Origin: Nitrospirota bacterium | GTDB lineage: Bacteria > Nitrospirota > Thermodesulfovibrionia > SZUA-242 | Assembly: GCA_003235715.1 (NCBI GenBank) | Contig: QJVM01000092.1 | Location: forward strand, 1 to 36,073 | Length of the DNA: 36,073 bases | Direction: 5' to 3' | Part shown: positions 1 to 30,062 of the stretch, piece by piece | Position numbering within the stretch: the first letter of the stretch is position 1 | How the letters are laid out: the number at the start of each line of letters is the position of its first letter | The notes under the pieces: generated by a model | What the model was told of the DNA's origin: nothing | Database searches by the model: none | The model's input: only the letters and a program-made list of their open reading frames with translations | Made by a program: the position numbers and the translations under genes

Positions 1-2403
1 AACACGACGAGCTGGCTGAACGCCACGGTGGACCACACGGCGGTTTCAGGGACGTGCTTCTCCTGTCATAACGGCACCACGGCCACGGGCAAGAGCGCGA
101 CCCACATCGCAAGCACCAACACCTGCGACGACTGCCACACGACCACGAGCTGGCTGAATGCCACCGTGGATCACAGCACGCTCACGGCCACGTGTTATTC
201 GTGCCACAACGGCACCTCAGCCACCGGCAAGAGCGCGACCCACATCGCAAGCACCAATACCTGTGATGACTGCCACAACACGACCAACTGGCTGAATGCC
301 ACGGTGGACCACACGGCGGTGACGGGCACGTGTTACTCGTGTCACAACGGGACCACGGCGACGGGCAAGAGCGCGACCCATATTTCGAGTTCCAATACCT
401 GCGACGACTGTCATACCACGACGTCCTGGCTCGGAGCGCGCGTGGACCACAGCACGATCACGGCTACGTGCTATTCCTGCCATAACGGAAACAAGGCCAC
501 CGGCAAGTCGGCGACGCATATTGCAAGCACCAACACCTGCGACGACTGTCACACGACAACGAGCTGGCTGAACGCCACGGTGGATCACACGGCGGTTTCA
601 GGGACGTGCTTCTCCTGTCATAACGGCACCACGGCCACGGGCAAGAGCGCGACCCATATCGCAAGCACCAACACCTGCGACGACTGCCACACGACCACGA
701 GCTGGCTGAATGCCACCGTGGATCACAGCACGCTCACGGCCACGTGTTATTCGTGCCACAACGGCACCTCGGCCGCGGGGAAGTCGGCGACCCATATCGC
801 AAGCACCAATACGTGCGACGACTGCCACAACACGACCAACTGGCTGAACGCCACGGTGGACCACACGGCGGTTTCAGGGACGTGCTTCTCCTGTCACAAC
901 GGGACCACGGCGACGGGCAAGAGCGCGAGCCATATTTCGAGTTCCAATATCTGCGACGACTGTCACACCACGACGAGCTGGTTGAATGCCACCGTGGATC
1001 ACAGCACGCTCACGGCCACGTGCTATTCCTGCCATAACGGGACCACAGCCACCGGGAAGACCGTGACCCACATCGCAAGCACCAACACTTGTGATGACTG
1101 CCACACCACCACGAACTGGCTGAACGCCACGGTGGATCATACGGCGGTTTCGGGCACGTGTTATTCCTGCCACAACGGGACCACGGCCACGGGCAAATCG
1201 GCGACCCATATATCGAGCTCCAATACCTGTGACGACTGCCATACGACCACGAGCTGGTTGAATGCCACCGTGGACCACAGCACGCTCACGGCTACGTGCT
1301 CCTCCTGTCATAACGGGACCACAGCCACCGGGAAGACCGTGACCCACATCGCAAGCACCAACACCTGTGATGACTGCCACACCACCACGAGCTGGCTGAA
1401 CGCCACGGTGGACCACACGGCGGTGACGGGTACGTGCTCCTCCTGTCACAATGGGACCACGGCCATCGGGAAGAATTCGACCCATATTTCGAGTTTGAAC
1501 ACGTGTGACGACTGCCACACGACGACAAGCTGGCTGAACGCCACGGTGGATCACACGGCGGTGACGGGCACGTGCTCCTCCTGTCACAACGGGACCACGG
1601 CTATCGGGAAGAATGCGACCCATATATCGAGTTTGAACACGTGTGACGATTGTCACACGACCATGAGCTGGCTGAACGCCACGGTGGATCACACGGCGGT
1701 GACGGGTACGTGTTACTCCTGTCATAACGGGACCACGGCCACCGGCAAGTCCGCAACCCATATGGCAAGCACCAGCATCTGCGATGACTGCCACACGACG
1801 ACGAGCTGGCTGAACGCCGCGGTGGATCACACGGCGGTGACGGGTACCTGTTATTCCTGTCATAACGGGATTACGGCCACCGGCAAGAGCGCAACCCACA
1901 TCAGCAGCGGGAACGTTTGTGACGACTGCCACGTTACGACCAGTTGGACCCAGGTGAACGTGGACCACGGAACCCTCACCGGATCCTGTTCATCCTGCCA
2001 TGACGGGACCCGCGCCACGGGAAAACCATCCGGTCATTTCCAGACCACCGTGCAATGCAACGAGTGCCACAGCACGTTGAGCTGGCTGCCGGTGCTGTCG
2101 TATCGGCATTCCAGCCCCGATTACCCCGGCAACCATAACTCGTCGGTTACGTGCATCTTCTGCCATACCTCCAACAGTCAGACCGCCACGTGGACCAGTG
2201 CGGCCTATAAACCTGACTGCGCCGGTTGCCACGCGAACGATTTCCGTTCCAGCGACCACAGAAAGGTTGTGAATGGCGCCTATTACACGGCCAGCGAACT
2301 TCGGGATTGTACGGGGGCCTGCCACACCTATACGGATTCCACGCTCAGGACCATATATCGTTCCCGTTCAGGAGAACACAGAGTCAGTTCAGGGAGTTGG
2401 TAA
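1..2403 (+). CDS. Repeat-built multiheme c-type cytochrome (5' partial)
   Basis: The frame is open from the first base, so the N-terminus and any signal peptide lie outside the window; the apparent GTG start at 28 is just a Val inside a repeat. The visible part is 800 residues. Fifteen units of 46 residues start with CxSCH (first Cys codon at 55) and carry a second motif, CDDCH, 23 residues on. A divergent tail adds CIFCH, CAGCH and a spaced CTGACH, giving 32 CxxCH plus one CX3CH. Each unit has two further conserved His (GKxxTH and VDH), enough to give both hemes bis-His ligation. Such proteins are periplasmic or extracellular electron carriers; I infer an extracellular or outer-surface electron-transfer role, but the family is not one I can name. 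The next gene begins 4 bases after the stop, suggesting an operon. Strong for cytochrome, weak for exact role. Confidence 0.9.
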   Translation, partial: NTTSWLNATVDHTAVSGTCFSCHNGTTATGKSATHIASTNTCDDCHTTTSWLNATVDHSTLTATCYSCHNGTSATGKSATHIASTNTCDDCHNTTNWLNATVDHTAVTGTCYSCHNGTTATGKSATHISSSNTCDDCHTTTSWLGARVDHSTITATCYSCHNGNKATGKSATHIASTNTCDDCHTTTSWLNATVDHTAVSGTCFSCHNGTTATGKSATHIASTNTCDDCHTTTSWLNATVDHSTLTATCYSCHNGTSAAGKSATHIASTNTCDDCHNTTNWLNATVDHTAVSGTCFSCHNGTTATGKSASHISSSNICDDCHTTTSWLNATVDHSTLTATCYSCHNGTTATGKTVTHIASTNTCDDCHTTTNWLNATVDHTAVSGTCYSCHNGTTATGKSATHISSSNTCDDCHTTTSWLNATVDHSTLTATCSSCHNGTTATGKTVTHIASTNTCDDCHTTTSWLNATVDHTAVTGTCSSCHNGTTAIGKNSTHISSLNTCDDCHTTTSWLNATVDHTAVTGTCSSCHNGTTAIGKNATHISSLNTCDDCHTTMSWLNATVDHTAVTGTCYSCHNGTTATGKSATHMASTSICDDCHTTTSWLNAAVDHTAVTGTCYSCHNGITATGKSATHISSGNVCDDCHVTTSWTQVNVDHGTLTGSCSSCHDGTRATGKPSGHFQTTVQCNECHSTLSWLPVLSYRHSSPDYPGNHNSSVTCIFCHTSNSQTATWTSAAYKPDCAGCHANDFRSSDHRKVVNGAYYTASELRDCTGACHTYTDSTLRTIYRSRSGEHRVSSGSW
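55..2124 (+). repeat. 15 tandem 138-bp repeats inside the cytochrome gene
   Basis: Cys codons of the first motif recur every 138 bases (55, 193 and so on to 1987). The final 18 residues of an earlier unit precede position 55, so the array continues upstream. Units 1-10 alternate between the linkers HSTLTAT/HSTITAT and HTAVSGT/HTAVTGT, making a 276-bp dimeric super-repeat; units 10-13 all use the HTAV linker, so the alternation breaks there. Units 1-2 and 5-6 are nearly identical in DNA at an offset of 552 bp, which points to recent block duplication or gene conversion. The last unit degenerates after about 2090. Confidence 0.95.
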
Positions 2404-2407
2404 ATCT

Positions 2408-2905
2408 ATGACCAGAAACCGTTTGTTGACCCTTCTTGCTTTGCTCTTACTGGGCGCGATCCTGCTGGCCCAGGCGGCTCTTTCGCAACCCGTTCGTGAC
2501 CGGGTTCTCAGTGAGGTCCGTATTGCGGACGGCGACGAATGCGCGCTTGTCACCGTAAGCTTCAACTTCCCGGTCCGGTATGTCCGGCATTTTCCTGAGA
2601 CCGCCGGGGATGAGTTGCGGATTCACCTGGAACCCATTGCCGTGAATCCCCGGGATGCGAACGCCCTCTTCAAACGCGAGGCGATCAAGCCGCCGGCCTC
2701 GGAGATTGCGCCCCTGGTGGAGGTGACCTACGAAGGCGACATCACCGGGGGGCCCTATCTGACGTTGTCGTTCAACCACCCGGTCCAGTTCAAGGTGGGC
2801 CAGGGGAGCGATTTCAGGAGCCTCGTGGTGGCCGTTCCCCTTCCTGAAACGAACCTGCCGTGCGATCCGATGCCGGACAAGGGCAAGGCCCCGTCGGGCA
2901 GGTAG
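2408..2905 (+). CDS. Small secreted AMIN-like beta-domain protein
   Basis: The product is 165 residues. Residues 1-26 are a clear signal peptide with a Leu/Ala-rich core ending near AQAALS, so it should be exported. The ATG at 2408 is chosen because it places the signal peptide at the N-terminus and has an AGGGAG Shine-Dalgarno sequence about 11 bases upstream. The rest is a beta-rich domain with the pattern of AMIN-type domains. It parallels residues 45-158 of the barrel protein at 5290-8190: SFNFPVRYVRH matches RFTQPLRYVSH, and VQFKVGQGSDFRSLVVAV matches VAFNVSGGSDGRSVVVAI. It has no CxxCH, so it binds no c-type heme. It probably acts as a periplasmic partner of the cytochrome or the barrel protein; that role is inferred from position and shared domain only. 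Confidence 0.75.
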   Translation: MTRNRLLTLLALLLLGAILLAQAALSQPVRDRVLSEVRIADGDECALVTVSFNFPVRYVRHFPETAGDELRIHLEPIAVNPRDANALFKREAIKPPASEIAPLVEVTYEGDITGGPYLTLSFNHPVQFKVGQGSDFRSLVVAVPLPETNLPCDPMPDKGKAPSGR

Positions 2906-2970: not shown

Positions 2971-3843
2971 ATGCATCAGATAAAAAAAAGGGAAGATTTT
3001 TCAGACATTACCTTCTCCATCGAAGTGGAACACCCTTTGCTCGCCAAGGCGGCCCAGCCCGGCCAGTTTGTAATCGTCCGAACGCACCAGACCGGGGAGC
3101 GTATACCGCTCACCATCGCGGACTATGACCGCGAAAAGGGAACCATCACCATGGTGATCCAGGCCGTGGGAAAGACCACGCGCGAGATGCAGGCGATGTG
3201 TCGTCCGGGAGCGCATCTTGCCGGGATCGCGGGGCCCCTGGGGATGCCCAGCCACATCGGGCAGGCCCGTAAGGTGGTGTGCATCGGCGGAGGGCTGGGG
3301 GTAGCTCCCACTTATCCCCAACTCCGGGCTCACAAGCTGAACGGGGCCTACGTCATTGGGATCGTCGGTTTCAGAAGCAGGAACCTCGTCTTTTGGGAAG
3401 ACCGGTTCCGGGCGTTCACGGACGAGTACCTCGTGTGTACGGATGACGGGTCCGCAGGGATCCGCGGGCTGGTCACGGACGGATTGAGAGAGGTGATTTC
3501 CCGTCATCCGGATATCGACGAGGTGATCGCCATTGGACCCCCGGTGATGATGAAGTTCTGTTCGGATGTCACCCGACCCTTTGGTATCCGGACCACGGTA
3601 AGCCTGAACCCGATCATGGTGGATGGCACCGGGATGTGCGGAGGATGCCGCGTGACCGTGGCCGGGCAGATGAAACTGGGCTGTGTGGACGGTCCCGACT
3701 TCGACGGACATCAGGTGGATTTTGATGAACTGATTAACCGCCTCGGAAGATACAAGGAAGACGAAAGACTCGCCATGGAACGGTGGCTCCGCCATCGCGA
3801 TCACTGCCGCCTGGTCGGTCAGGCAACGGGAGGTGCCTCATGA
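2971..3843 (+). CDS. nfnA: NADH-dependent ferredoxin:NADP+ oxidoreductase, subunit NfnA-like
   Basis: This 290-residue flavoprotein belongs to the ferredoxin-NADP reductase/dihydroorotate dehydrogenase electron-transfer family. RIPLTIAD (residues 44-51) is the FAD-binding motif, and CIGGGLGVAPTYPQ (104-117) binds the pyridine nucleotide. The C-terminal [2Fe-2S] site has Asp218, Cys223, Cys226 and Cys238, the Asp/Cys3 spacing known for NfnA. With NfnB it would bifurcate electrons between NADPH, NAD+ and ferredoxin in the cytoplasm. GGAGGTG lies just before the ATG, and its stop overlaps the start of the next gene in ATGA, the usual nfnAB arrangement. SudB (sulfide dehydrogenase beta subunit) is an older name for similar proteins and cannot be excluded. 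What is odd is its location between genes for exported proteins. Confidence 0.88.
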   Translation: MHQIKKREDFSDITFSIEVEHPLLAKAAQPGQFVIVRTHQTGERIPLTIADYDREKGTITMVIQAVGKTTREMQAMCRPGAHLAGIAGPLGMPSHIGQARKVVCIGGGLGVAPTYPQLRAHKLNGAYVIGIVGFRSRNLVFWEDRFRAFTDEYLVCTDDGSAGIRGLVTDGLREVISRHPDIDEVIAIGPPVMMKFCSDVTRPFGIRTTVSLNPIMVDGTGMCGGCRVTVAGQMKLGCVDGPDFDGHQVDFDELINRLGRYKEDERLAMERWLRHRDHCRLVGQATGGAS

Positions 3844-5255
3844 GCACGGTAAAAAAAACGCTAAGGAGCATTCCGCAGGACAGGACCCCTCTTCCGGAGG
3901 TTGCCCCCGAAATTCGAGTCAGGAGTTTTCGGGAGGTGGCCGAGGGATACAGCCGGGACCAGGCTTTGCACGAAGCCAATCGTTGCCTCGGATGCAGCAA
4001 GCCCGGTTGCGTAACCGGGTGCCCCGTGTCCATCAACATCCCGGGATTCATCCGGCGGATCCAGGAGAAAAATTTCAGGGAAGCCTACGAAATCCTGACC
4101 CGGTCCACCACGCTGCCCGCGGTCTGCGGCCGGGTTTGCCGCCAGGAGGACCAGTGTGAGGGTTCGTGCACGGTGGGGAGGAAACTGGCACCCGTGGCCA
4201 TCGGCAATCTGGAGCGGTGGCTCGGGGACCTGGCCATTCGTGAAGGCTGGCACCTCGAACGGACGGGCGCAAGAACCGGCCGACAGGTGGCCGTGATCGG
4301 CTCGGGTCCGGCGGGTCTTGCTTGTGCCGCGGACATGGTGCGGGCGGGTTGTGAGGTTACGGTATTCGAAGCCTTGCATGAACCGGGCGGGGTGCTCAAG
4401 TACGGCATTCCCGAATTTCGCCTTCCGAACGATGTGGTGGATGCTGAAGTGGAAAATCTGAAGAGACTCGGGGTTCGTTTCGAATGCGATGCCCTCATCG
4501 GGCGGCTTTTAACCATAGAAGAGCTGAAGAAGGATATGGGATTTGAGGCGGTCTTTATCGGTACCGGCGCCGGTTATCCCTCTTTCATGGGTATTCCCGG
4601 TGAGTCCCTGAACGGAGTTCTTTCGGCCAACGAGTTTCTGACGCGATGCAATCTGATGAAAGCCTGCAATTTCCCCTGCACGGACACACCTGTGCATACG
4701 GGGCGCCGCGTGGCCGTGATCGGCGCGGGCAATACGGCCATGGATGCATTGCGGGTGGCCGCGCGCCTCGGCGCGGAGAAGACCTATTGTCTGTACCGGC
4801 GCAGCCGTTCAGAGAGCCCTGCACGACTTGAAGAACTGCGGCATGCGGAAGAGGAGGGCGTAGAATTCCGATGGCTCACCCTTCCTCTTGAGATCCTGAA
4901 CGATGGCCAGGGCTCGGTGCGTGGCCTTTCCTGTGTCCGGACCGAACTCGGTGAACCCGATGCCTCGGGCCGACGAAAGGCCTCCACGGTCCCCGGAACC
5001 GAGCACGTGATCGAGGTGGATATGGTCATTTATGCCCTGGGAACCAATGCCAACCCCATCATCGGCCAGACGAGCTCGCTCAAGCTGGACGCCCGCGGGT
5101 ATATTGCGACCAATGAACGACTGGAGACGTCCATGCCGGGTGTTTTTGCCGGCGGCGATATCGTCACAGGGGCGGCTACGGTCATCAGTGCCATGGGGGC
5201 CGGGCGACGGGCTGCCGGTGCGATGAAAACCCTTTTCGGTTTCCGATCCAATTAG
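3840..5255 (+). CDS. nfnB: Nfn subunit B / GltD-like FAD and Fe-S oxidoreductase
   Basis: The product is 471 residues from the ATG at 3840, chosen because it forms the ATGA overlap with nfnA and has GGGAGG upstream. The N-terminal cluster domain has Cys49, 52, 57 and 61 and Cys96, 100, 106 and 110, consistent with two [4Fe-4S] clusters. VIGSGPAGLA (about 152-161) binds FAD, and VIGAGNTAMDALR (293-305) binds NADPH. A final FAD contact is AGGDIVTGAATV (437-448). The same fold occurs as the glutamate synthase small subunit GltD, but no large-subunit gene is present and NfnA is its partner, so NfnB is preferred. It should be cytoplasmic and couple NADPH to ferredoxin and NAD+. The barrel-protein gene starts 34 bases downstream on the same strand. 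Confidence 0.9.
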   Translation: MSTVKKTLRSIPQDRTPLPEVAPEIRVRSFREVAEGYSRDQALHEANRCLGCSKPGCVTGCPVSINIPGFIRRIQEKNFREAYEILTRSTTLPAVCGRVCRQEDQCEGSCTVGRKLAPVAIGNLERWLGDLAIREGWHLERTGARTGRQVAVIGSGPAGLACAADMVRAGCEVTVFEALHEPGGVLKYGIPEFRLPNDVVDAEVENLKRLGVRFECDALIGRLLTIEELKKDMGFEAVFIGTGAGYPSFMGIPGESLNGVLSANEFLTRCNLMKACNFPCTDTPVHTGRRVAVIGAGNTAMDALRVAARLGAEKTYCLYRRSRSESPARLEELRHAEEEGVEFRWLTLPLEILNDGQGSVRGLSCVRTELGEPDASGRRKASTVPGTEHVIEVDMVIYALGTNANPIIGQTSSLKLDARGYIATNERLETSMPGVFAGGDIVTGAATVISAMGAGRRAAGAMKTLFGFRSN

Positions 5256-5289: not shown

Positions 5290-8190
5290 ATGCTCATTCT
5301 TCACAAATTTGCTTTACGGGGATGTCTTCTCGATGAGCTGAACAGGACTTTGGCTCGACGGGTCGGCTCCCTTTTCTTGCTGGTGCTGCTGTTGCTTCCG
5401 TTTCAGGGATTGTATGCCGAAACACGCCTGATCGACGAGATTTCCCTTTCAGAAAACGAAACGGGTGGAGAGATCCAGGTCCGCTTCACGCAGCCCCTGC
5501 GGTATGTGTCCCATGCCCCCCTTGAAAAAGGGAGGGTGGTCACGATTCGTCTGAAGCGAGTTGTTTCGCCCACACAGTCTGTTCCGGAGAGCGATAGACC
5601 GGAGAAGGTGTCGGTGAACGGCCGGCCTGCGCTTCCTTTGCTCGAAGCCCACCTGGACCTCTCCATCCCCGGGAGTCCGGAACTGGTGTTGACCTTTGAA
5701 CGAACGGTGGCTTTCAATGTTTCCGGCGGCAGCGACGGGCGGAGCGTGGTTGTGGCGATCAAGGGTGAAACACCCGCGGCGGCTGAGGCTCCGAAAAAGC
5801 CGGAGCCTGTAGAGTTGCCCGAGCAGGTCACGTCCAACCGGGAGCGGTATGCCATCAACCTCTTGTGGACCACGGACCCCATCAACGTTGAGGCTCTCCC
5901 GGCCCTGGACAAGATGTCCCGGCACCGACTTTACATCTCCCGGTATATGGCCGGGGACGTGCTCTGGTACCGGCTTCGCCTTGGGTTTTTTGATTCCCGA
6001 AAGGAAGGAGAACGTTTCCTCGAAAGCATCCGCAGTAATTACAAGTCTGCATTCGTGACCCAACTGGCTCCCGGGGAAGAGGAGCGCTCGGTACGGGAAG
6101 CCCGGCCCATTCCAGCGAAACCGTCAGAAAAGGCCGCCCCGCCTCCGTCCGGGACAACGCCGGAAGAGCCCGCTCCGTCCGACGCGATTGTGGCCGACGC
6201 CGGAACCCAGCTGAATTATGTGGTCAATCTGGCCTCTTCCCTGGAACCCTTCACGGCCGAGAAGGTACCCGACCTTGAAGCCTTCGGAGGATACCGGCTC
6301 TACACCACGACCTTCAGCCTCGAGGGAACCCGGTGGCACCGGCTTCGTCTCGGTTTCTTCCCGACGCGGGAGGCGGCTGTTCTTCACATGGCCGGGGTTG
6401 GGAAGGACTATCCCCAGGCCTGGGTCAGCCGGGTTTCCCGCAAGGAACGGGAAGAGTCAGCCAACCGGATCCTGAAGGCCGGCCCCCCTTCGGCCCCGTT
6501 CCATGGCCCTGAAGGAGCCGTGCTCGTCGAAACAGAGAAAGCGCCGACTGAAATCGCGGAACCGCCCCCCGGAACCGCAGAATCCGAGGAAAAACTCGCG
6601 GCACGGATGGAGGAAGCCCGGGTGGCCATGGCCAACGGCGATTACCGGAGGGCCATCCAGCTATACACAAAGGTAATGACCTCGGCAAATCCCAAATTCG
6701 ACCCGGATGCCCTGGAATACCTGGGACTCGCACGGGAGCGGAACGGCCAGATGGCCCATGCGGTGGCAGAATACCAGAGGTACCTCAAGCTCTATCCTGA
6801 AACCGAGGGAGCGGTTCGTGTCCAGCAGCGGCTCGACGGACTTCTTCTCGCCCAGGCTCCGGCCAAGGAAAAATTAAAGGGCGAGGTCAGCGAGCGGAGC
6901 AGAAAGGAAGTTCGGGGAAGCTTCTCGCAGTTTTATACCTATGATGAAAGTTATGAAGACGAGCTGGGGGTTATGACCAACCGCTCCGCCCTTTCATCGG
7001 ATCTCGATATCACCGGCCGGGTACGCACCCAACGTTTTGACACGCAGGCCCGGTTTACCGGCGGCTATGAAAACAATTTTCTTCGCAGAGGTGAGGACGA
7101 GGCCAGCATCAGCGCCCTCTACATCGATGCGGCCGGGTGGGAGAACCGCGTTGCCGGCCGGGTCGGGCGCCAGAGCCAGAGCACGGGCGGGGTGTTGGGC
7201 CGTTTCGACGGAGCGCACCTGGGCTTTCAGCTCTTTTCCAGGCTTCGCCTGAACCTCGTGGGAGGGTACCCGGTTTCGTCGTCGACGAAGACCAGCGTGG
7301 AAACCGAAAAGGGTTTCTATGGCGTAAACATGGATATCGGTACCTTCCTTGAACACTGGGACTTCAATATCTATGCGGTCGAGCAGACGGCCGACGGGAT
7401 TCAGGACCGACGGGCCGTGGGAGGCGAAGTGCGGTACTTCCATCCGAGACGTTCCTTTTTCGGTCTTGTGGACTATGACGTTCTGTTCGACGAGCTGAAC
7501 ACAGGCCTGGTGCTGGGAACCCTGGTCTTTGAAGATCGGTCCACGATCAACATCTCTCTGGATTACCGGCGAAGCCCCGTTCTCACCACAAGCAACGCTC
7601 TTCAGGGCCAGCTTACGGATTCCCTGAGGTCCCTGAACGATATCTATGATGACAGCACGCTCCGGAAACTGGCCCGCGACCGTTCTCCCATCAGTCGCTC
7701 CGCGAGCCTTGGGGTATCCAAACCCGTCACCGAGAAGCTTCAGCTGAGCGGCGATGCGACCATCTCCGAGATTGGCGACAGCCGCGCTTCAGGGGGGGTT
7801 GAGGCCGTGGAGGGTACGGGCATTGAGTACTCGGTATCGTTTCAGGTCACGGGGAGCAGCCTCATCAAGGAAGGCGATATCGGCATTGTCGACCTCCGCT
7901 ATTTTGAAGGCCATACTCACAAGACTTACTCCCTTAACCTCAATACCCGCTATCCCGTGAATCGCGCCTGGCGGATCAACCCCAGGGTCAGGCTGGATTA
8001 CCGTCTAAATGACAGAGACGCCGGCGAGGAAATTTCCGTGCGACCGTCCCTGAGGACGGACTACCGCCTCGGAAGACACCTGCGGTTTGAGCTCGAGGGC
8101 GGAGGCGAATGGTCGAATGAGGACCTCCCCGGCGACACCAGGGTTTCCACCAATTACTATGTCACTTCAGGGTATCGGTGGGATTTCTGA
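5290..8190 (+). CDS. Outer-membrane barrel protein with AMIN-like, two SPOR-like and TPR domains
   Basis: This 966-residue protein has a signal peptide core at about residues 27-43 (LFLLVLLLLPFQGLYA). It continues with an AMIN-like beta domain (45-158), two SPOR-like repeats (about 186-260 and 308-383, each with YRLRLGFF or HRLRLGFF), Pro/Glu-rich linkers, a TPR-like helical pair (about 450-515) and a beta-strand-rich C-terminal half from about 540. It ends in YRWDF, and a terminal Phe is typical of barrels inserted by the BAM complex. The predicted 27-residue n-region is long, so a TTG start at 5350 is an alternative. SPOR and AMIN domains bind peptidoglycan or cell-envelope partners, so it may anchor a pore to the wall. 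I infer that it could be the outer-membrane partner of the cytochrome, but it has no named family. Confidence 0.72.
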   Translation: MLILHKFALRGCLLDELNRTLARRVGSLFLLVLLLLPFQGLYAETRLIDEISLSENETGGEIQVRFTQPLRYVSHAPLEKGRVVTIRLKRVVSPTQSVPESDRPEKVSVNGRPALPLLEAHLDLSIPGSPELVLTFERTVAFNVSGGSDGRSVVVAIKGETPAAAEAPKKPEPVELPEQVTSNRERYAINLLWTTDPINVEALPALDKMSRHRLYISRYMAGDVLWYRLRLGFFDSRKEGERFLESIRSNYKSAFVTQLAPGEEERSVREARPIPAKPSEKAAPPPSGTTPEEPAPSDAIVADAGTQLNYVVNLASSLEPFTAEKVPDLEAFGGYRLYTTTFSLEGTRWHRLRLGFFPTREAAVLHMAGVGKDYPQAWVSRVSRKEREESANRILKAGPPSAPFHGPEGAVLVETEKAPTEIAEPPPGTAESEEKLAARMEEARVAMANGDYRRAIQLYTKVMTSANPKFDPDALEYLGLARERNGQMAHAVAEYQRYLKLYPETEGAVRVQQRLDGLLLAQAPAKEKLKGEVSERSRKEVRGSFSQFYTYDESYEDELGVMTNRSALSSDLDITGRVRTQRFDTQARFTGGYENNFLRRGEDEASISALYIDAAGWENRVAGRVGRQSQSTGGVLGRFDGAHLGFQLFSRLRLNLVGGYPVSSSTKTSVETEKGFYGVNMDIGTFLEHWDFNIYAVEQTADGIQDRRAVGGEVRYFHPRRSFFGLVDYDVLFDELNTGLVLGTLVFEDRSTINISLDYRRSPVLTTSNALQGQLTDSLRSLNDIYDDSTLRKLARDRSPISRSASLGVSKPVTEKLQLSGDATISEIGDSRASGGVEAVEGTGIEYSVSFQVTGSSLIKEGDIGIVDLRYFEGHTHKTYSLNLNTRYPVNRAWRINPRVRLDYRLNDRDAGEEISVRPSLRTDYRLGRHLRFELEGGGEWSNEDLPGDTRVSTNYYVTSGYRWDF

Positions 8191-19769: not shown

Positions 19770-19908
19770 GCCTGCACCTCTTCAGTCAACGTAATGTTAT
19801 GGTCACAGAGTGTCATGCGGTGGTCAGCTGATGTTTACAATGATATTATAATTGCCCTAGAGAGTGGTGCGACGCTCGCTGTCTGCCAGAGAAGGACCCA
19901 TCCTGCCT
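19770..19908. promoter_or_regulatory. Divergent promoter region, Anbu / ATP-grasp
   Basis: TATAAT at 19847-19852 faces the ATP-grasp gene and is part of ATTATAAT, which is its own reverse complement, so both strands carry a perfect -10 hexamer at nearly the same place. No standard -35 box is present for the rightward promoter. TGGTCA occurs at 19800-19805 and again at 19821-19826, 21 bases apart (two helical turns), with the second copy close to the -35 position, as expected for an activator site. The rightward start near 19859 favours the ATG at 19909 over the GTG at 19864. Confidence 0.45.
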
Positions 19909-21372
19909 ATGGGAAAAGACGGAATACGCTGGAAACCATACGAGAGCCCGGGCTTTTTCGACGAGCTCATTAAGGGAAAGGGCCGAATCCGATACGGGGC
20001 CCGGCCTCTGTGCCGATACCTTTCCAGGCTGTCCACAGACGAGGTGGGTCGTAGAAAAGCCGCTGCCGACCTGGCCATCCATACGATGGGCATCACCTTT
20101 CGGGTCTATTCCGACAAGACCGGTTCCATTGACCGGGAATGGCCCTTTGACATCATTCCCCGCATCATTCCGCGTTCTGAATGGGAGCGTATCCGGGAAG
20201 GCCTGACGCAGCGGGTCAGGGCACTGAACCTTTTCATCAACGACCTGTACCACGGCCAGAAGATTGTCAAGGATAAGGTCTTTCCCGAGACCGTGCTGCA
20301 GGAATCGAAGAATTTCCGGAAGATTTGTATGGGCGTGAATCCCCCTCTCGGCGTGTGGGCACACATTTGCGGGAGTGATCTGGTGCGAGACAGTGACGGA
20401 ACCATGTACGTTCTCGAGGACAATCTTCGGGTTCCTTCAGGCGTGTCCTACATGCTGGAGAACCGCCAGATCATGAAACGCGTCTTCCCCGAGATGTTCG
20501 AGGCCTATGACATCGACCCCGTCGATGACTATGCCTTGCAGTTACAGCAGTGTCTGGCTTCCTTATCGCCCCGCAATGTGAGAAATCCGGAGATTGTCGT
20601 CCTCACGCCGGGAATCTACAACTCGGCCTACTTCGAACATTCCTATCTGGCCCAGCAGATGGGCGCCGAACTGGTGGAAGGTGCGGATCTTTTTGTCGGG
20701 AGTGACGATGTGGTTTACATGCGGACCGTGGAAGGCCCGAAACGCGTGGATGTGATTTACAGGCGGATTGACGACCTCTTTCTGGACCCGGAGGCGTTCC
20801 ATCCGGATTCCATGCTGGGGGTCTGCGGCCTGGTCCGGTCCTGGAAAAAAGGCAAGGTTGCGCTGGCCAACGCGCCCGGGGCGGGGGTGGCGGACGACAA
20901 GGTGGTGTATGCCTATGTTCCCGAGGTCATTCGTTATTACCTCGGGGAGGACCCGCTCATCCCGAACGTCCCGACCTATCTCTGTTTTGACCGGAAACAG
21001 CGAGAGCACGTCATCCAGAACCTGGACAAGCTTGTTGTGAAGCCGGCGAATGAATCCGGCGGCTACGGCATGCTCATTGGGCCGCATGCGACCCAGAAAG
21101 AACGGAATCATTTTGCACGGTTGATTCGAAGGGATCCGCGGAACTACATCGCGCAGCCACTCCTGGGTATCTCCACAACCCCGACTCTTGTGGGCGACCG
21201 CGCGGAACCCCGTCACGTGGACCTCCGGCCATTCATCCTCTCGGGAAAGGAAATGTTCGTGACCCAGGGAGGCCTCACCCGGGTGGCCCTGCGAAAAGGA
21301 TCGACCGTCGTCAACTCCTCGCAGGGCGGTGGGAGCAAGGACACCTGGATCGTGGGTCGTAAGGGGTTGTAG
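19909..21372 (+). CDS. Circularly permuted ATP-grasp family protein
   Basis: This 487-residue protein (from the ATG at 19909; a GTG at 19864 would add 15) belongs to the circularly permuted ATP-grasp family predicted to form peptide or amide bonds using ATP. Landmarks are FFDELIKGKGRIR near the start, GITFRVYSD, PFDIIPRIIP, NLFINDLYHGQKIVKD, VWAHICGSDLVRDSDGTMYVLEDNLRVPSG, VVKPANESGGYGMLIGP (the permuted nucleotide loop) and HVDLRPFILSG near the C-terminus. AGAAGGA lies 12 bases before the ATG. The alpha-E gene begins one base after its stop, the standard pairing for the family. The substrate is unknown; glutamate-like tag formation has been proposed for related systems. Confidence 0.92.
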   Translation: MGKDGIRWKPYESPGFFDELIKGKGRIRYGARPLCRYLSRLSTDEVGRRKAAADLAIHTMGITFRVYSDKTGSIDREWPFDIIPRIIPRSEWERIREGLTQRVRALNLFINDLYHGQKIVKDKVFPETVLQESKNFRKICMGVNPPLGVWAHICGSDLVRDSDGTMYVLEDNLRVPSGVSYMLENRQIMKRVFPEMFEAYDIDPVDDYALQLQQCLASLSPRNVRNPEIVVLTPGIYNSAYFEHSYLAQQMGAELVEGADLFVGSDDVVYMRTVEGPKRVDVIYRRIDDLFLDPEAFHPDSMLGVCGLVRSWKKGKVALANAPGAGVADDKVVYAYVPEVIRYYLGEDPLIPNVPTYLCFDRKQREHVIQNLDKLVVKPANESGGYGMLIGPHATQKERNHFARLIRRDPRNYIAQPLLGISTTPTLVGDRAEPRHVDLRPFILSGKEMFVTQGGLTRVALRKGSTVVNSSQGGGSKDTWIVGRKGL

Positions 21373-21373
21373 C

Positions 21374-22306
21374 ATGCTTTCCCGCGAAGCCGAACGTATT
21401 TACTGGATGGGGCGCTACCTCGAGCGCGCAGAGGACATGTCCCGTCTGGTTAACGTCAATGCCCTGCTGCTTCTCGACCTTCCCGGAGGTGTCTCCGTGG
21501 GATGGAAACCCCTGGTGTCCATTACCGCAAGTGAACCTCTTTTTTCAGACCGCTATGGCGAGGCAACGGAGCGAAACGTGATCCGTTTCCTGGTTAGTGA
21601 CCAGGGGAACCCCGGATCCATTCTTAGTGCGCTGTCGCAGGCCAGGGAAAACGCCCGTACGATACGGGATATCATCCCGCGGGAAGCCTGGGAAGAGGTC
21701 AACAACATCTATCTCCATGCGAAGGAGGATATGCATTCCGGCCTTTCAAAGCGGGGCCGGAATGTCTACCTTACCTCCATCATCCGGAGGTCCCAGCTCA
21801 TCACCGGGCTTCTGGCCGGTACCATGACGCACAACTATGCCTACGACTTCTTGAAACTTGGCCGAAACCTCGAGCGGGCGGATATGACCAGTCGGATCGT
21901 GGACATCCGCTCCCAGAATCTTCTCAACGAGCCCGAGGAAAGTCTCCGGCCTTTCGAAAACATCCAGTGGATGAGCGTCCTGAAGTCCTTGTCCGGCTAC
22001 CAGATGTACCGTCAGCACGTCCGCGGCCCGGTCCGGGGTGCCGACGTAATCCATTTCCTTTTCAAGCACGAACAGTTTCCCCGGTCGATTTATCATTGTG
22101 TCAGCGAGGTGGCCGGATGCCTCCGCCGACTGCCCCGAAACGAGGACCCCATGAAGACCCTGAACCGGCTCCGCCGGGCTGTCCGGAACACGAACCCGGA
22201 AGATCTTCCTGCGGAAGGCTTGACCCGTTACATCGACAAGATTCAGCGCGTCTTCAACCGCTTCCACCAAGATATCCAGGCCACCTATTTTTCCATCACC
22301 TCGTAG
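21374..22306 (+). CDS. Alpha-E domain-containing protein
   Basis: The 310-residue, all-helical protein starts MLSREAERIYWMGRYLERAED, the alpha-E signature, with repeated charged helices such as YAYDFLKLGRNLERADMTSRI later on. The domain always travels with permuted ATP-grasp proteins and is thought to assist the ligase or hold its substrate; no catalytic activity has been assigned. The ATG is taken because it lies one base after the ATP-grasp stop, with GGGG eight to ten bases upstream. In many genomes a transglutaminase-like protease gene comes next; here a 356-base gap follows and then glgE, so that partner is absent from the window. Confidence 0.92.
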   Translation: MLSREAERIYWMGRYLERAEDMSRLVNVNALLLLDLPGGVSVGWKPLVSITASEPLFSDRYGEATERNVIRFLVSDQGNPGSILSALSQARENARTIRDIIPREAWEEVNNIYLHAKEDMHSGLSKRGRNVYLTSIIRRSQLITGLLAGTMTHNYAYDFLKLGRNLERADMTSRIVDIRSQNLLNEPEESLRPFENIQWMSVLKSLSGYQMYRQHVRGPVRGADVIHFLFKHEQFPRSIYHCVSEVAGCLRRLPRNEDPMKTLNRLRRAVRNTNPEDLPAEGLTRYIDKIQRVFNRFHQDIQATYFSITS

Positions 22307-22347
22307 CGATTTATTCATATCGATCCGCCCTCCGCGGAAGGACAGCT

Positions 22348-22467
22348 ATGCAAGAAGATGGAAGCCCATGTCTGCTTGAGTCCCGGCGATTATTTGACGT
22401 CGTCTCTCAGAATTCTGGGGACTCACCACATCCTTTGACGTCCGGAATGGATTCACGCGCAATCTGA
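22348..22467 (+). CDS. Possible 39-residue small ORF
   Basis: GGAAGGA lies about seven bases before an ATG that opens 39 codons (MQEDGSPCLLESRRLFDVV and so on) and ends at a TGA. The good ribosome-binding site is the only support; the peptide has no recognisable motif, membrane segment or signal. It follows the alpha-E gene by 41 bases on the same strand, so it could be translated from the same message or be chance. Confidence 0.2.
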   Translation: MQEDGSPCLLESRRLFDVVSQNSGDSPHPLTSGMDSRAI

Positions 22468-22530
22468 ATGTTGCGGGTAATTTCCCGAAAAACGATTGCG
22501 GATAAGGCAGACGTCGTCCCAGTACGAGGA

Positions 22531-22548
22531 AGAGTCCTGCACGACTCT
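22531..22548. other. Small inverted repeat
   Basis: AGAGTC-CTGCAC-GACTCT has a perfect 6-bp stem and a 6-base loop. It lies downstream of the alpha-E gene and could end that transcript, but it has no T-run (GTTTC follows), so its role is open. Confidence 0.3.
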
Positions 22549-22662
22549 GTTTCAGAGGTTCAGACGTTTCTTATGGCGCATCCAATGTAATTCGCTGAAT
22601 CAAACTCGGGTCGCGTTCCTTTGCATGAGATCGGTTTTGAGCGCTCCAATCAATGTGATACC

Positions 22663-24657
22663 ATGAGTTTCATGAACTTTGACGGAAGAAAGCGTGTGGT
22701 GATCGAGAACGTGAAGCCCGAGATCGACGGCGGTCGGTTTCCGGCCAAACGCGTGGTGGGCGAAAACGTGCGCGTGACCGCCGATGTGTTCACTGACGGG
22801 CACGACAAGGTGGCCGCCGTGATCCGCTACCGGGGGCCCTCTGACGAGGAATGGCACGAGAAGCGTTGCCGTTTCAATGGGGCCGACCGGGCCACCGCCG
22901 AGTTCCAGGTCACGGACCTCGGCCCCTATCTCTACACAGTAGAAGGCTGGGTGGATCACTTCGCCTCATGGCAGAGCGACCTCAAGAAGAAGTACGATGC
23001 CGGGCAGACGGTCAATACGGAGGTCAAGGCCGGAATCCTGCTGGTTCGGGAGGCGACGAAGCGGGCGGAACCGGGAGATGCGAAGCGGCTTTCAAGCCTC
23101 GCCGCATCCATCGAGCGGGAAAAGGACGCGGACCGGGCCGTGGCGCTTTGTTTCGGAACGGAACTCACGGAGTTGATGGACCGCTGGCCCGATCGGGGTT
23201 TTTCCACGGTCTATGAACGGGAACTCCTCGTCACGGTTGAACGAAAGCGGGCCCTGTTCAGTTCATGGTACGAACGGTTTCCCCGTTCCTGCACCACCGA
23301 CCCCGAACGGCATGGAAGCTTCCGGGACTGCATCGAGATGCTGCCCGAGATCCGTCGCATGGGTTTTGACGTGCTCTACCTTCCGCCCATCCATCCCATC
23401 GGCGAGACCAAGCGGAAGGGAAAGAACAACAATCCGGAATCGGAGCCTGAGGATGTGGGAAGTCCCTGGGCCATCGGGAGCCGGGAGGGGGGACATACGG
23501 CCATCCATCCCGACCTCGGGACCCTGGAAGACTTCCTGGACCTCGTGGAAGCCGGGAAGAGCCAGGGGATCGAACTGGCCCTCGATCTGGCCTACCAGTG
23601 CTCGCCTGATCATCCTTACGTGAAGGAACACCCCGAGTGGTTCCGCTGGCGGCCCGACGGTACGGTCCAGTACGCGGAAAATCCGCCCAAGAAGTACGAG
23701 GATGTTCTCCCAATCAATTTCGAGACGGATCACTGGCAGCCCCTGTGGGAGGAGCTCCGCGACGTGGTGCTCTTCTGGATCGACAAAGGCATCCGGGTCT
23801 TTCGCGTGGACAATCCGCATACCAAGCCCTTTGTCTTCTGGGAGTGGCTGCTGGGTGAGATCCGGCGTGATTATCCGGACGTCATCTTTCTGTCCGAGGC
23901 CTTTGCCCGGCCCACGGTCATGTACCGCCTGGCCAAGATTGGCTTTACCCAGTCGTATACCTATTTCACCTGGCGAAACACCAAGTGGGAGTTTGAATCC
24001 TACCTGACGGAGTTGACCCAGGGGGACAAGCGCGAGTATTTCAGGCCCAATTTCTGGACCAACACCCCGGACATCCTGCCGGAGCATCTGCAATATGGCG
24101 GGAGGCCGGCCTTCATGATGCGCCTTCTTCTGGCCGCGACCCTGAGTTCCAGTTACGGGGTCTATGGGCCCGTGTTTGAGCTGGCCGTGAGCGAAGCAGT
24201 TCCGGGCAAGGAGGAGTACAAGGACTCGGAGAAATACGAGGTCCGCCAATGGGACTGGGAACAGCCTGGGCATCTCCGTGACTTTATCGCAAGGGTCAAC
24301 CGCGTCCGTCAGGAAAACCCCGCTTTTCAGACCACCTGGAACCTCCGGTTCGTGGAGGTGGAGAACGAGTACCTCCTGGCTTATATCAAGTACGACGAAT
24401 CCATGGAGAGTCTTCTGCTGGTGGTGGTGAACCTGGATCCTTATCACACGCAGAGCGGATGGCTGAAGGTGCCCATCGGGGAGCTGGAGATCGACCCGGA
24501 GAAGCCTTACCTCGTTCATGACCTGCTCGGCGACGGCAAGTACATCTGGCACGGGGAACGCAACTATGTGGAGCTGAACCCGAAGGTTCTGCCCGGCCAC
24601 ATCTTCCAGGTGCGCAAGCGTCTCCGGAGGGAATCGGACTTTGACTATTTCGTGTAA
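22663..24657 (+). CDS. glgE: Alpha-1,4-glucan:maltose-1-phosphate maltosyltransferase
   Basis: GlgE extends alpha-1,4-glucans by transferring maltosyl units from maltose-1-phosphate. The 664-residue product (ATG at 22663; a second ATG at 22672 is equally possible) has the family's usual length. An N-terminal beta domain (about 1-110) and helical insert precede the GH13 barrel. The nucleophile is Asp383 in RVDNPHTKP and the acid/base is Glu412 in LSEAFARP; their spacing of 29 equals that of the Streptomyces enzyme (394 and 423). IHPIGETKRKGKNN and LDLAYQCSPDHPYVKEHPEW are also diagnostic. The next gene makes its substrate, though a separate promoter candidate lies between them. No clear ribosome-binding site is visible at either ATG. 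Confidence 0.95.
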   Translation: MSFMNFDGRKRVVIENVKPEIDGGRFPAKRVVGENVRVTADVFTDGHDKVAAVIRYRGPSDEEWHEKRCRFNGADRATAEFQVTDLGPYLYTVEGWVDHFASWQSDLKKKYDAGQTVNTEVKAGILLVREATKRAEPGDAKRLSSLAASIEREKDADRAVALCFGTELTELMDRWPDRGFSTVYERELLVTVERKRALFSSWYERFPRSCTTDPERHGSFRDCIEMLPEIRRMGFDVLYLPPIHPIGETKRKGKNNNPESEPEDVGSPWAIGSREGGHTAIHPDLGTLEDFLDLVEAGKSQGIELALDLAYQCSPDHPYVKEHPEWFRWRPDGTVQYAENPPKKYEDVLPINFETDHWQPLWEELRDVVLFWIDKGIRVFRVDNPHTKPFVFWEWLLGEIRRDYPDVIFLSEAFARPTVMYRLAKIGFTQSYTYFTWRNTKWEFESYLTELTQGDKREYFRPNFWTNTPDILPEHLQYGGRPAFMMRLLLAATLSSSYGVYGPVFELAVSEAVPGKEEYKDSEKYEVRQWDWEQPGHLRDFIARVNRVRQENPAFQTTWNLRFVEVENEYLLAYIKYDESMESLLLVVVNLDPYHTQSGWLKVPIGELEIDPEKPYLVHDLLGDGKYIWHGERNYVELNPKVLPGHIFQVRKRLRRESDFDYFV

Positions 24658-24694
24658 GAGCGCAGGGCTGCTGAGTCGGTGGCCTGGTCAACCA

Positions 24695-24712
24695 ACGGAT
24701 ATAATTCTCCGT
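24695..24712 (+). promoter_or_regulatory. Dyad around a TATAAT upstream of treS
   Basis: ACGGA-TATAATTC-TCCGT is a perfect 5-bp inverted repeat flanking TATAAT at 24700-24705, 88 bases before the treS start. No good -35 hexamer is found 16-18 bases upstream. A site of this form would let a repressor cover the -10 element. It may give treS and glgB a promoter independent of glgE. Confidence 0.4.
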
Positions 24713-24792
24713 CGGCCGCGCTGACATTGACGGACCCCCAACGCGGCAGCCAACTAACCTGCTGACTAACCCGATCACCAGCATCATACGTT

Positions 24793-28122
<3,330 letters not shown>

Positions 28123-28127
28123 ACGAT

Positions 28128-30062
28128 ATGAAGAAAAAGGAAGACCCGAAAGTTATTCACGGCGTCAGCCTCCTCTCGGAATTCGACATTCATCTCTTCC
28201 GGGAGGGCAACCATTTCAACCTGTTCGACAAGCTGGGGGCACACTTCATGGAGGTGGAGGGGGTCAAAGGGACCCTCTTTGCCGTATGGGCTCCCAATGC
28301 GGAGCGGGTCACGGTGATGGGCGGTTTCAATGACTGGCAGGCTGAAACGCACGACCTGTCCGTCCGCCTGGATCATTCCGGCATCTGGGAGGGGTTTGTT
28401 CCCTATGTCATGCCGGGAACCTCCTATAAATATCATGTCTGGTCGAAATATCAGGGGTATCGTTCGGACCGGGCTGACCCTGTAGGGTTCTTTGCGGAGC
28501 GGGCCCCGTCGACCGGTTCCGTGGTGTGGTCGCTGGACTATGAATGGAACGACCGGGACTGGATGTCCCGGCGGAAGGAACGGAACGCGCTGGAGGCTCC
28601 CTGGTCCATCTACGAAATGCATCTCGGTTCATGGCGCCGAAAACCGGAGGAGGCGAACCGATCCCTCACGTACCGGGAGATGGCCCCCTACCTCGTGGAC
28701 TACGTGAAGGAATTGGGGTTCACGCACGTGGAGTTCCTTCCGATCATGGAGCATCCCTTTTATGGGTCCTGGGGCTATCAGGTCACGGGCTACTTCGCGC
28801 CCACCAGCCGTTACGGTACGCCCCAGGATTTCATGTATCTTGTGGACCAGCTTCATCAGGCCGGCATCGGCGTGATCATGGACTGGGTTCCGTCCCACTT
28901 CCCGGGTGACGGCCACGGCCTGGCGTATTTCGACGGGACTCACCTCTACGAACACGAGGACCCACGGAAGGGATTTCATCCGGAATGGAAAAGCTACATC
29001 TTCAATTACGGCCGGAACGAGGTCCGGAATTTTTTGATCAGCAATGCCATTTTCTGGCTGGACAAGTATCACATCGATGGCCTGCGGGTGGATGCCGTCG
29101 CCTCGATGCTGTACCTCGACTATGCCCGCAGCGGCGGCGACTGGATTCCGAACGAATACGGCGGCAACGAGAACATCCCGGCCATACAGTTTCTTCGCGA
29201 CTTCAACCAGGCCGTGTACCGGGCTCACCCCGATGTCCAGACCATTGCCGAGGAATCCACGGCCTGGCCCATGGTGTCCAAGCCCACGTACGTCGGTGGG
29301 CTGGGCTTTGGCATGAAGTGGAACATGGGCTGGATGCACGACACGCTGAAGTACATGGCCCAGGACCCGGTGTTTCGGAAGTATCACCATAACCAGCTGA
29401 CCTTCAGCATCTGGTATGCGTTCTCCGAGAACTTCGTGCTTCCCTTTTCACACGACGAGGTCGTGCATGGCAAGGGATCCATGTATGGCAAGATGGCCGG
29501 CGATGAATGGCAGAAGTACGCCAACCTCCGCCTTCTCTATGGATATATGTACGGTCACCCCGGCAAGAAACTGCTGTTCATGGGATCCGAGATCGCCCAG
29601 TGGCGGGAATGGACTCACGAGGACAGCGTGGAATGGCATGCCCTCCAGGACCGCTTTCATGCCGGCGTGAAGGACTGGATGCGTGACCTGAACCGGGTTT
29701 ACCGGCAGGAAAAGGCCCTCCATGAAGTGGATTTCGAGAATGCCGGATTCGAGTGGGTGGATTGTAATGACTGGGAGGAAAGCATCATCTGCTTCATCCG
29801 GAAGAGCCGGAACGGTGACGAGCAGATCCTCGTCGCCTGCAACTTTACGCCGATCCCCCGCCCCAATTATCGGGTGGGCGTTCCTCACGGCGGATACTGG
29901 ACCGAGGTCCTGAACAGCGATGCCGATACTTATGGCGGAAGCGGCACGGGCAATATGGGCGGCCTCGAAGCCACGCCGGTGCCGTCGCACGGCCGGTATT
30001 ATTCCCTGAACCTGACGCTTCCTCCATTGGGCGTGGTTTTTCTCAGGGGAGAGAACCGTTAG
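28128..30062 (+). CDS. glgB: 1,4-alpha-glucan branching enzyme
   Basis: GlgB cuts alpha-1,4 chains and rejoins them through alpha-1,6 links, giving the branched polymer that GlgE then extends. The 644-residue product has a CBM48-like N-terminal domain (FAVWAPNAERVTVMGGFNDW, about 45-66) and a GH13 barrel with MDWVPSHF, the nucleophile Asp322 (GLRVDAVASMLY) and the acid/base Glu375 (IAEEST). The 53-residue spacing equals that of E. coli GlgB (405 and 458). PFSHDEVVHGKGS carries the third acidic residue. The ATG at 28128 is chosen because GGGGAGG ends about ten bases before it and the treS stop is just upstream. It lacks the extra N-terminal domain of long enzymes. It converges with the antiporter gene across 93 bases. 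Confidence 0.96.
   Translation: MKKKEDPKVIHGVSLLSEFDIHLFREGNHFNLFDKLGAHFMEVEGVKGTLFAVWAPNAERVTVMGGFNDWQAETHDLSVRLDHSGIWEGFVPYVMPGTSYKYHVWSKYQGYRSDRADPVGFFAERAPSTGSVVWSLDYEWNDRDWMSRRKERNALEAPWSIYEMHLGSWRRKPEEANRSLTYREMAPYLVDYVKELGFTHVEFLPIMEHPFYGSWGYQVTGYFAPTSRYGTPQDFMYLVDQLHQAGIGVIMDWVPSHFPGDGHGLAYFDGTHLYEHEDPRKGFHPEWKSYIFNYGRNEVRNFLISNAIFWLDKYHIDGLRVDAVASMLYLDYARSGGDWIPNEYGGNENIPAIQFLRDFNQAVYRAHPDVQTIAEESTAWPMVSKPTYVGGLGFGMKWNMGWMHDTLKYMAQDPVFRKYHHNQLTFSIWYAFSENFVLPFSHDEVVHGKGSMYGKMAGDEWQKYANLRLLYGYMYGHPGKKLLFMGSEIAQWREWTHEDSVEWHALQDRFHAGVKDWMRDLNRVYRQEKALHEVDFENAGFEWVDCNDWEESIICFIRKSRNGDEQILVACNFTPIPRPNYRVGVPHGGYWTEVLNSDADTYGGSGTGNMGGLEATPVPSHGRYYSLNLTLPPLGVVFLRGENR

Follow-up and report, generated by a model that had tools for sequence, protein, structure and literature searches.

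A PCC3-type multiheme cytochrome built of 23-residue heme modules in a Nitrospirota bacterium, with a predicted role as an electron conductor at the outer face of a porin

The window, that is, the whole stretch of DNA analysed here, is the entire 36,073-base contig C45 of a Nitrospirota genome assembled into 271 contigs and 3.24 Mb. It opens with a truncated gene for an array of c-type heme sites, followed by genes for a small protein of family F4, a pair related to NfnA and NfnB, and a porin (Table 1). Further downstream, at 19864-30062, a circularly permuted ATP-grasp and Alpha-E pair is followed in a row by genes for GlgE, an alpha-amylase/TreS-like protein and a branching-enzyme-like protein, a set belonging to glucan/trehalose metabolism. 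Elsewhere in the same genome, contigs C62, C7 and C194 (loci L002, L003 and L004) specify multiheme cytochromes of a non-array kind, with 22, 14 and 9 CXXCH motifs, respectively; the cytochrome gene of L004 is followed by one resembling an outer-membrane barrel.

Table 1. Coordinates of the array gene, its parts and the genes downstream of it in the window
Feature	Position	Strand	Details
Array cytochrome gene, PCC3-type extracellular multiheme cytochrome, 5'-truncated	1..2403	+	800 aa, 32 CXXCH + 1 CX3CH
Partial first unit, aa 1-41	1..123	+	without its CDDCH
14 complete units of 138 bp / 46 aa, aa 42-685	124..2055	+	each two 23-aa half-units CxxCH-x11-H-x6
C-terminal domain (type 1), 115 aa, aa 686-800	2056..2400	+	CNECH, CIFCH, CAGCH, CX3CH and four further His (aa 703, 712, 753, 793)
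CX3CH heme site CTGACH, aa 770-775	2308..2325	+	conserved in most relatives
Small protein with signal-like N-terminus, family F4	2408..2905	+	resembles the porin N-terminal domain, 30% identity over 112 aa
NfnA/SudB-like FAD/NAD-binding iron-sulfur protein	2971..3843	+	PRK06222 above cut-off; operon insertion
NfnB/SudA-like protein, gltA family	3840..5255	+	TIGR01316 above cut-off
PCC3-type porin, family F0	5290..8190	+	N-terminal domain in common with F4, SPOR, TPR, presumed beta-barrel ending in F

The reading frame of the array gene has no 5' closure, and its first base is also the first base of the contig; hence, the 5' part of the gene has been cut off by the assembly, and the assembled sequence lacks the N-terminus of the array along with its signal peptide. 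Repeat DNA of the array kind was found on no other contig of the host assembly. The first-pass annotation was right to see a real open reading frame for a repeat cytochrome here, but it overlooked the contig end as well as the C-terminal domain with its four heme sites. Its count of fifteen units likewise holds for fourteen complete ones, the fifteenth being a partial unit that has lost its first CxxCH.

The array is highly regular. Successive CxxCH motifs are exactly 23 residues apart in 29 of the 31 intervals, and TRF reports 13.8 copies of a 138 bp period, with a 276 bp period scoring better still. All fourteen complete units retain C1, C4, H5, W10, D16, H17, C24, C27, H28, G30, A33, G35, K36 and H40, which bears out the earlier claim that each unit carries two CxxCH motifs and two further invariant His. 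Its half-units, such as CDDCHTTTSWLNATVDHTAVTGT and CYSCHNGTTATGKSATHIASTNT, share about 30% identity; one heme site and one further His occur in each. The smallest module of the array, as judged from its sequence, is thus a 23-residue element with one heme and one His. To call the 46-residue units near-identical is slightly too strong, given a mean pairwise identity of 78% at the amino acid and 76% at the nucleotide level and a divergent last unit.

The mean synonymous divergence (dS) among the units is about 1.0 and their dN/dS is 0.15, values that make chance an unreasonable explanation for them. They also bear on the proposal that the array length is a product of assembly, with the units being recent slippage copies devoid of functional meaning. 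A contig break inside the array, and the 91-93% identity that some units share with the unit four places further on, would fit such an origin, but synonymous divergence among the units is near saturation, so an assembly artefact can be rejected as the source of the repeats. Moreover, complete arrays occur on long contigs in isolate genomes, such as those of two named Amphritea species, and we regard this proposal as largely refuted and very improbable. Neighboring units at even lags are more alike and, together with the copies that are 91-93% identical, this suggests past segmental duplication.

The array of the window has 33 heme sites, namely 32 CXXCH and one CX3CH, against 34 other His. One His per heme leaves one His over, which fits a heme whose CxxCH lies beyond the start of the contig. 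The counts, both in the window and in the relatives, agree with the first-pass proposal that there are enough His for two per heme. That proposal also named homologues with unconserved spare His as evidence that would tell against it; in the relatives, however, the spare His is found 12 or 13 residues past the CxxCH His in 1247 of 1308 intervals of 22-24 residues, and it is invariant or nearly so in an alignment of the relatives (A1) and in 141 five-unit stretches (A3). With one conserved second His per heme, we infer bis-His ligation of the hemes along the chain.

Which heme each spare His serves is a separate question. Most likely, it ligates the following heme, in an H-x6-CxxCH arrangement. 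This pairing is favored by three features of the relatives. First, in 1222 of 1281 intervals six residues separate the His from the Cys that follows; the stretch between CxxCH and His varies more, almost only within the first half-unit. Second, six complete proteins (L019, L024, L029, L044, L046 and L047) stop about seven residues past their last CxxCH, which no His follows, a short C-terminus shared by the fragment L071, and in L024 and L029 the other His exactly equal the hemes in number. Third, two His precede the first heme at fixed positions in 49 of the 50 proteins with an N-terminus. The short C-terminus of these seven proteins carries a motif like TRxWDD/R. The converse pairing, in which the His would ligate the heme of the preceding CxxCH, 12-13 residues upstream, so that CxxCH-x11-H forms a closed module, draws on a CxxCH-to-His offset of 12 in 1037 and of 13 in 217 of the 1281 intervals. 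We consider it possible, though the less likely of the two: the His-to-next-Cys distance is the steadier one, the last heme of the short C-terminal variants has no His after it, two near-invariant His stand ahead of the first heme, and the stretch from heme 1 to heme 2 contains no conserved His. If each His serves the following heme, a 46-residue unit that is taken to begin at CDDCH would not have to be complete in itself. The description of the unit as a self-contained di-heme module therefore needs refining: the repeating chemistry would be that of the 23-residue, one-heme/one-His module.

The genome scan for relatives recovered 65 loci that span the Gamma-, Alpha- and Deltaproteobacteria, Nitrospinaceae, Nitrospira, Omnitrophota and other lineages, with an identity of 41-62% at most loci. 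These loci share an order in which an inner-membrane protein (family F2) is followed by a 21-heme multiheme cytochrome, the array cytochrome, in some cases F4, and the porin; genes of families F1 and F3 also lie close by. The F2 proteins of the relatives have the W-x3-H-x13-H motif twice along with SGxxG, which are the marks given for the PCC3 inner-membrane protein by He et al. (2017, PMC5566968). The same paper assigns 63 heme sites to the PCC3 extracellular multiheme cytochrome of Amphritea atlantica DSM 18887, and the locus that we retrieved from this very strain (L026) has 63 CXXCH. This match in a named strain, combined with the architecture of the loci, is the basis for identifying the system as PCC3. 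In line with the latter, the window encodes a large repeat cytochrome that is homologous to the arrays of PCC3 loci and has about 25 residues per heme (the published PCC3 median is 26), next to a porin of a family, F0, found at 49 loci including the window. Hence, the gene in the window is most likely of the known PCC3 extracellular multiheme cytochrome type. Arrays of up to 85 heme sites, their repeats, the range of their sizes and the proposal of a wire were all published in 2017 (He et al., PMC5566968), and the extracellular location of the array cytochrome is a prediction of the same authors. The function of PCC3 was still termed unverified in 2025 (PMC12442390). In the open-access literature, excluding supplements, we found no paper that describes a module of 23 residues, the tally of His against hemes, the change of length in pairs or the existence of two types of C-terminus. 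The F1 protein, an Fe-S/FAD oxidoreductase, occurs in 39 PCC3 loci and the F3 protein, with Sel1/ankyrin repeats, in 30 (both among L012-L076); neither is among the four components named in the passages on PCC3 that were read.

We found no paper in the open-access literature that connects PCC3 with Nitrospirota. Among 396 genomes drawn from this phylum, 22 have a match to the porin at E <= 1e-20, and none of these except the host itself belongs to the host's class. Three of the 22 that were read contain complete PCC3 clusters, with arrays of 41, 21 and 23 hemes. This sporadic distribution suggests horizontal spread.

The lengths of the arrays follow a simple rule. The number of CXXCH motifs ranges from 7 to 65 and is odd in 44 of 46 complete genes, the exceptions being L050, with 20 CXXCH and two CX3CH, and L076, whose product does not belong to the regular array type. 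A stricter set of 40 complete genes with 11-65 CXXCH has 39 odd counts, and the three arrays from the same phylum are odd as well; we claim no P value for these counts, as the loci are phylogenetically non-independent. The odd counts imply that arrays gain and lose hemes in di-heme steps and not as single half-units. The array length would then be the number of 46-residue di-heme units, which are gained or lost whole, probably through unequal recombination. Close relatives have nearly or wholly constant counts: 63 in each of three Amphritea, 33 in both L012 and L020, 33 in both L024 and L044, and 23 versus 21 in the pair L037 and L047. The earlier expectation that length changes by unit number thus holds between genera, in whole 46-residue steps; between close relatives, length is stable or nearly so. 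The relative at L040:5172-10784, a protein of 1870 residues with 65 CXXCH, has irregular spacing and many extra His.

The rest of the host cluster is only partly assembled. At the edge of contig C237 lies an F1 gene (64% identity), followed by the start of F3, which runs off the contig end. As the gene order in L017 is F1, F3, inner-membrane protein, 21-heme cytochrome, array, F4 and porin, with a similar order in L015, we predict that the missing middle of the host cluster lies between C237 and C45. The host assembly yielded no convincing match to the 21-heme periplasmic cytochrome and no inner-membrane protein, and the contigs break at the very places where both would be expected. The host also differs from other PCC3 loci in an insertion. 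Wherever else F4 and the porin are both present they adjoin, whereas here they are separated by the NfnA/NfnB-like pair, an insertion that the other loci read all lack. A second NfnB-like gene, 68% identical, is found on contig C41. By virtue of its position, the inserted pair may be coupled to PCC3.

Comparisons with other multiheme systems leave PCC3 as the closest. The published PCC3 cytochromes (PMC5566968 and the Gallionellaceae survey PMC10734462) share with the window homologous arrays, the neighboring porin, the repeats and the wire hypothesis; the differences are the NfnAB pair between F4 and the porin, and the periplasmic cytochrome and inner-membrane protein that are missing from the assembly. 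The decahemes MtrA, MtoA and DmsE likewise space their CxxCH motifs some 25 residues apart, in several cases with a His about 12 residues further on, but they have ten hemes and no tandem array, and the array scores 134.4 bits against the MtrA/DmsE model NCBIfam TIGR03508, below its cut-off of 192.2. Matches to PDB sequences are short or compositional; the best by profile, 6r2q_A, is labelled cystathionine beta-synthase, yet reads as an MtrA-type CxxCH chain. OmcS, OmcE and OmcZ are multiheme conductors outside the cell, but their filaments polymerise from small subunits, whereas in the window the chain itself is the array; no likeness to OmcS/OmcE-type filaments emerged from the PDB, by sequence or, with weak models, by fold. 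The array exceeds the curated cut-offs of the cytochrome c7 and doubled-CXXCH families PF14522, PF09699, TIGR01905 and TIGR04257, which are generic models of CxxCH spacing and thus uninformative as to system or function. A Pfam 'Glutaredoxin' match on the array was rejected as cysteine-driven, and a search of plasmids returned no close array. Heme-free AlphaFold2 modeling gave a pLDDT of 48.7 for all 800 residues (41-row alignment) and a pLDDT of 71.3 with a pTM of 0.38 for five units (141 rows), and Foldseek against the PDB with these weak models gave no useful match. Published AlphaFold2 models of PCC3 cytochromes are reported to be long and mostly linear (PMC10734462).

Taken together, we favor, with a probability of close to 0.8, the reading that the gene codes for a PCC3 extracellular cytochrome: a string of bis-His hemes that would both conduct and store electrons at the outer side of the porin and whose length is set by 46-residue units. 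A heme would be attached at the CxxCH found every 23 residues, with the one further His in each such stretch providing the second axial ligand. Based on the cluster content and the published PCC3 model, the string would form an extended conductor and store, with electrons passing between an extracellular donor or acceptor, the array, the periplasmic 21-heme cytochrome, the inner-membrane protein and the quinone pool. Electron uptake is slightly favored over release, considering the PCC3 carriers among metal oxidizers and the NfnAB pair in the operon.

One relative raises the possibility of a different location, that is, a periplasmic or wall-spanning conductor anchored to peptidoglycan by its N-terminus instead of a surface wire. 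The protein at L017:6576-10076 has three peptidoglycan-binding SPOR domains ahead of its array, which hints at a periplasmic N-terminus; SPOR is also present in the porins of L017 and the window, and the N-terminal FDHxxTGFxLxGxH-x4-CxxCH element of the arrays is similar to the repeats found in the 21-heme protein of the periplasm. However, SPOR was seen ahead of the array in one relative, most arrays begin a short way behind a signal-like N-terminus, a distinct 21-heme protein for the periplasm is already part of the cluster, and He et al. (PMC5566968) predict an extracellular location. We accordingly hold the periplasmic location to be improbable. Another suggestion, made in PMC10734462, is that of a capacitor. 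The many hemes per chain and a length that varies widely while the partner proteins stay unchanged might point to an array acting mainly as a redox buffer and not as a directional wire; yet the strict geometry of the modules and the purifying selection on the units fit ordered packing, and conduction and storage are mutually compatible. That storage is its main role seems unlikely to us.

The surface conductor could be specified further: PCC3 arrays might be strictly quantised wires, made of H-x6-CxxCH 23-residue modules in obligate pairs and altered in whole di-heme steps, and tied in this bacterium by a dedicated NfnAB to the NAD(P)H/ferredoxin pool, as for electron uptake. As a whole this version is rather doubtful; if true, evolution would be tuning the length of the wire in fixed steps. 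The inserted NfnAB pair in itself suggests a concrete connection of extracellular electrons to the reducing power of the cell. PCC3 is widespread, and the regularity of its 23-residue module, in which heme sites and His tally exactly, opens it to experiment: short constructs of a few units could be expressed and their structure solved, and the number of units could be varied to learn how conduction depends on heme count.
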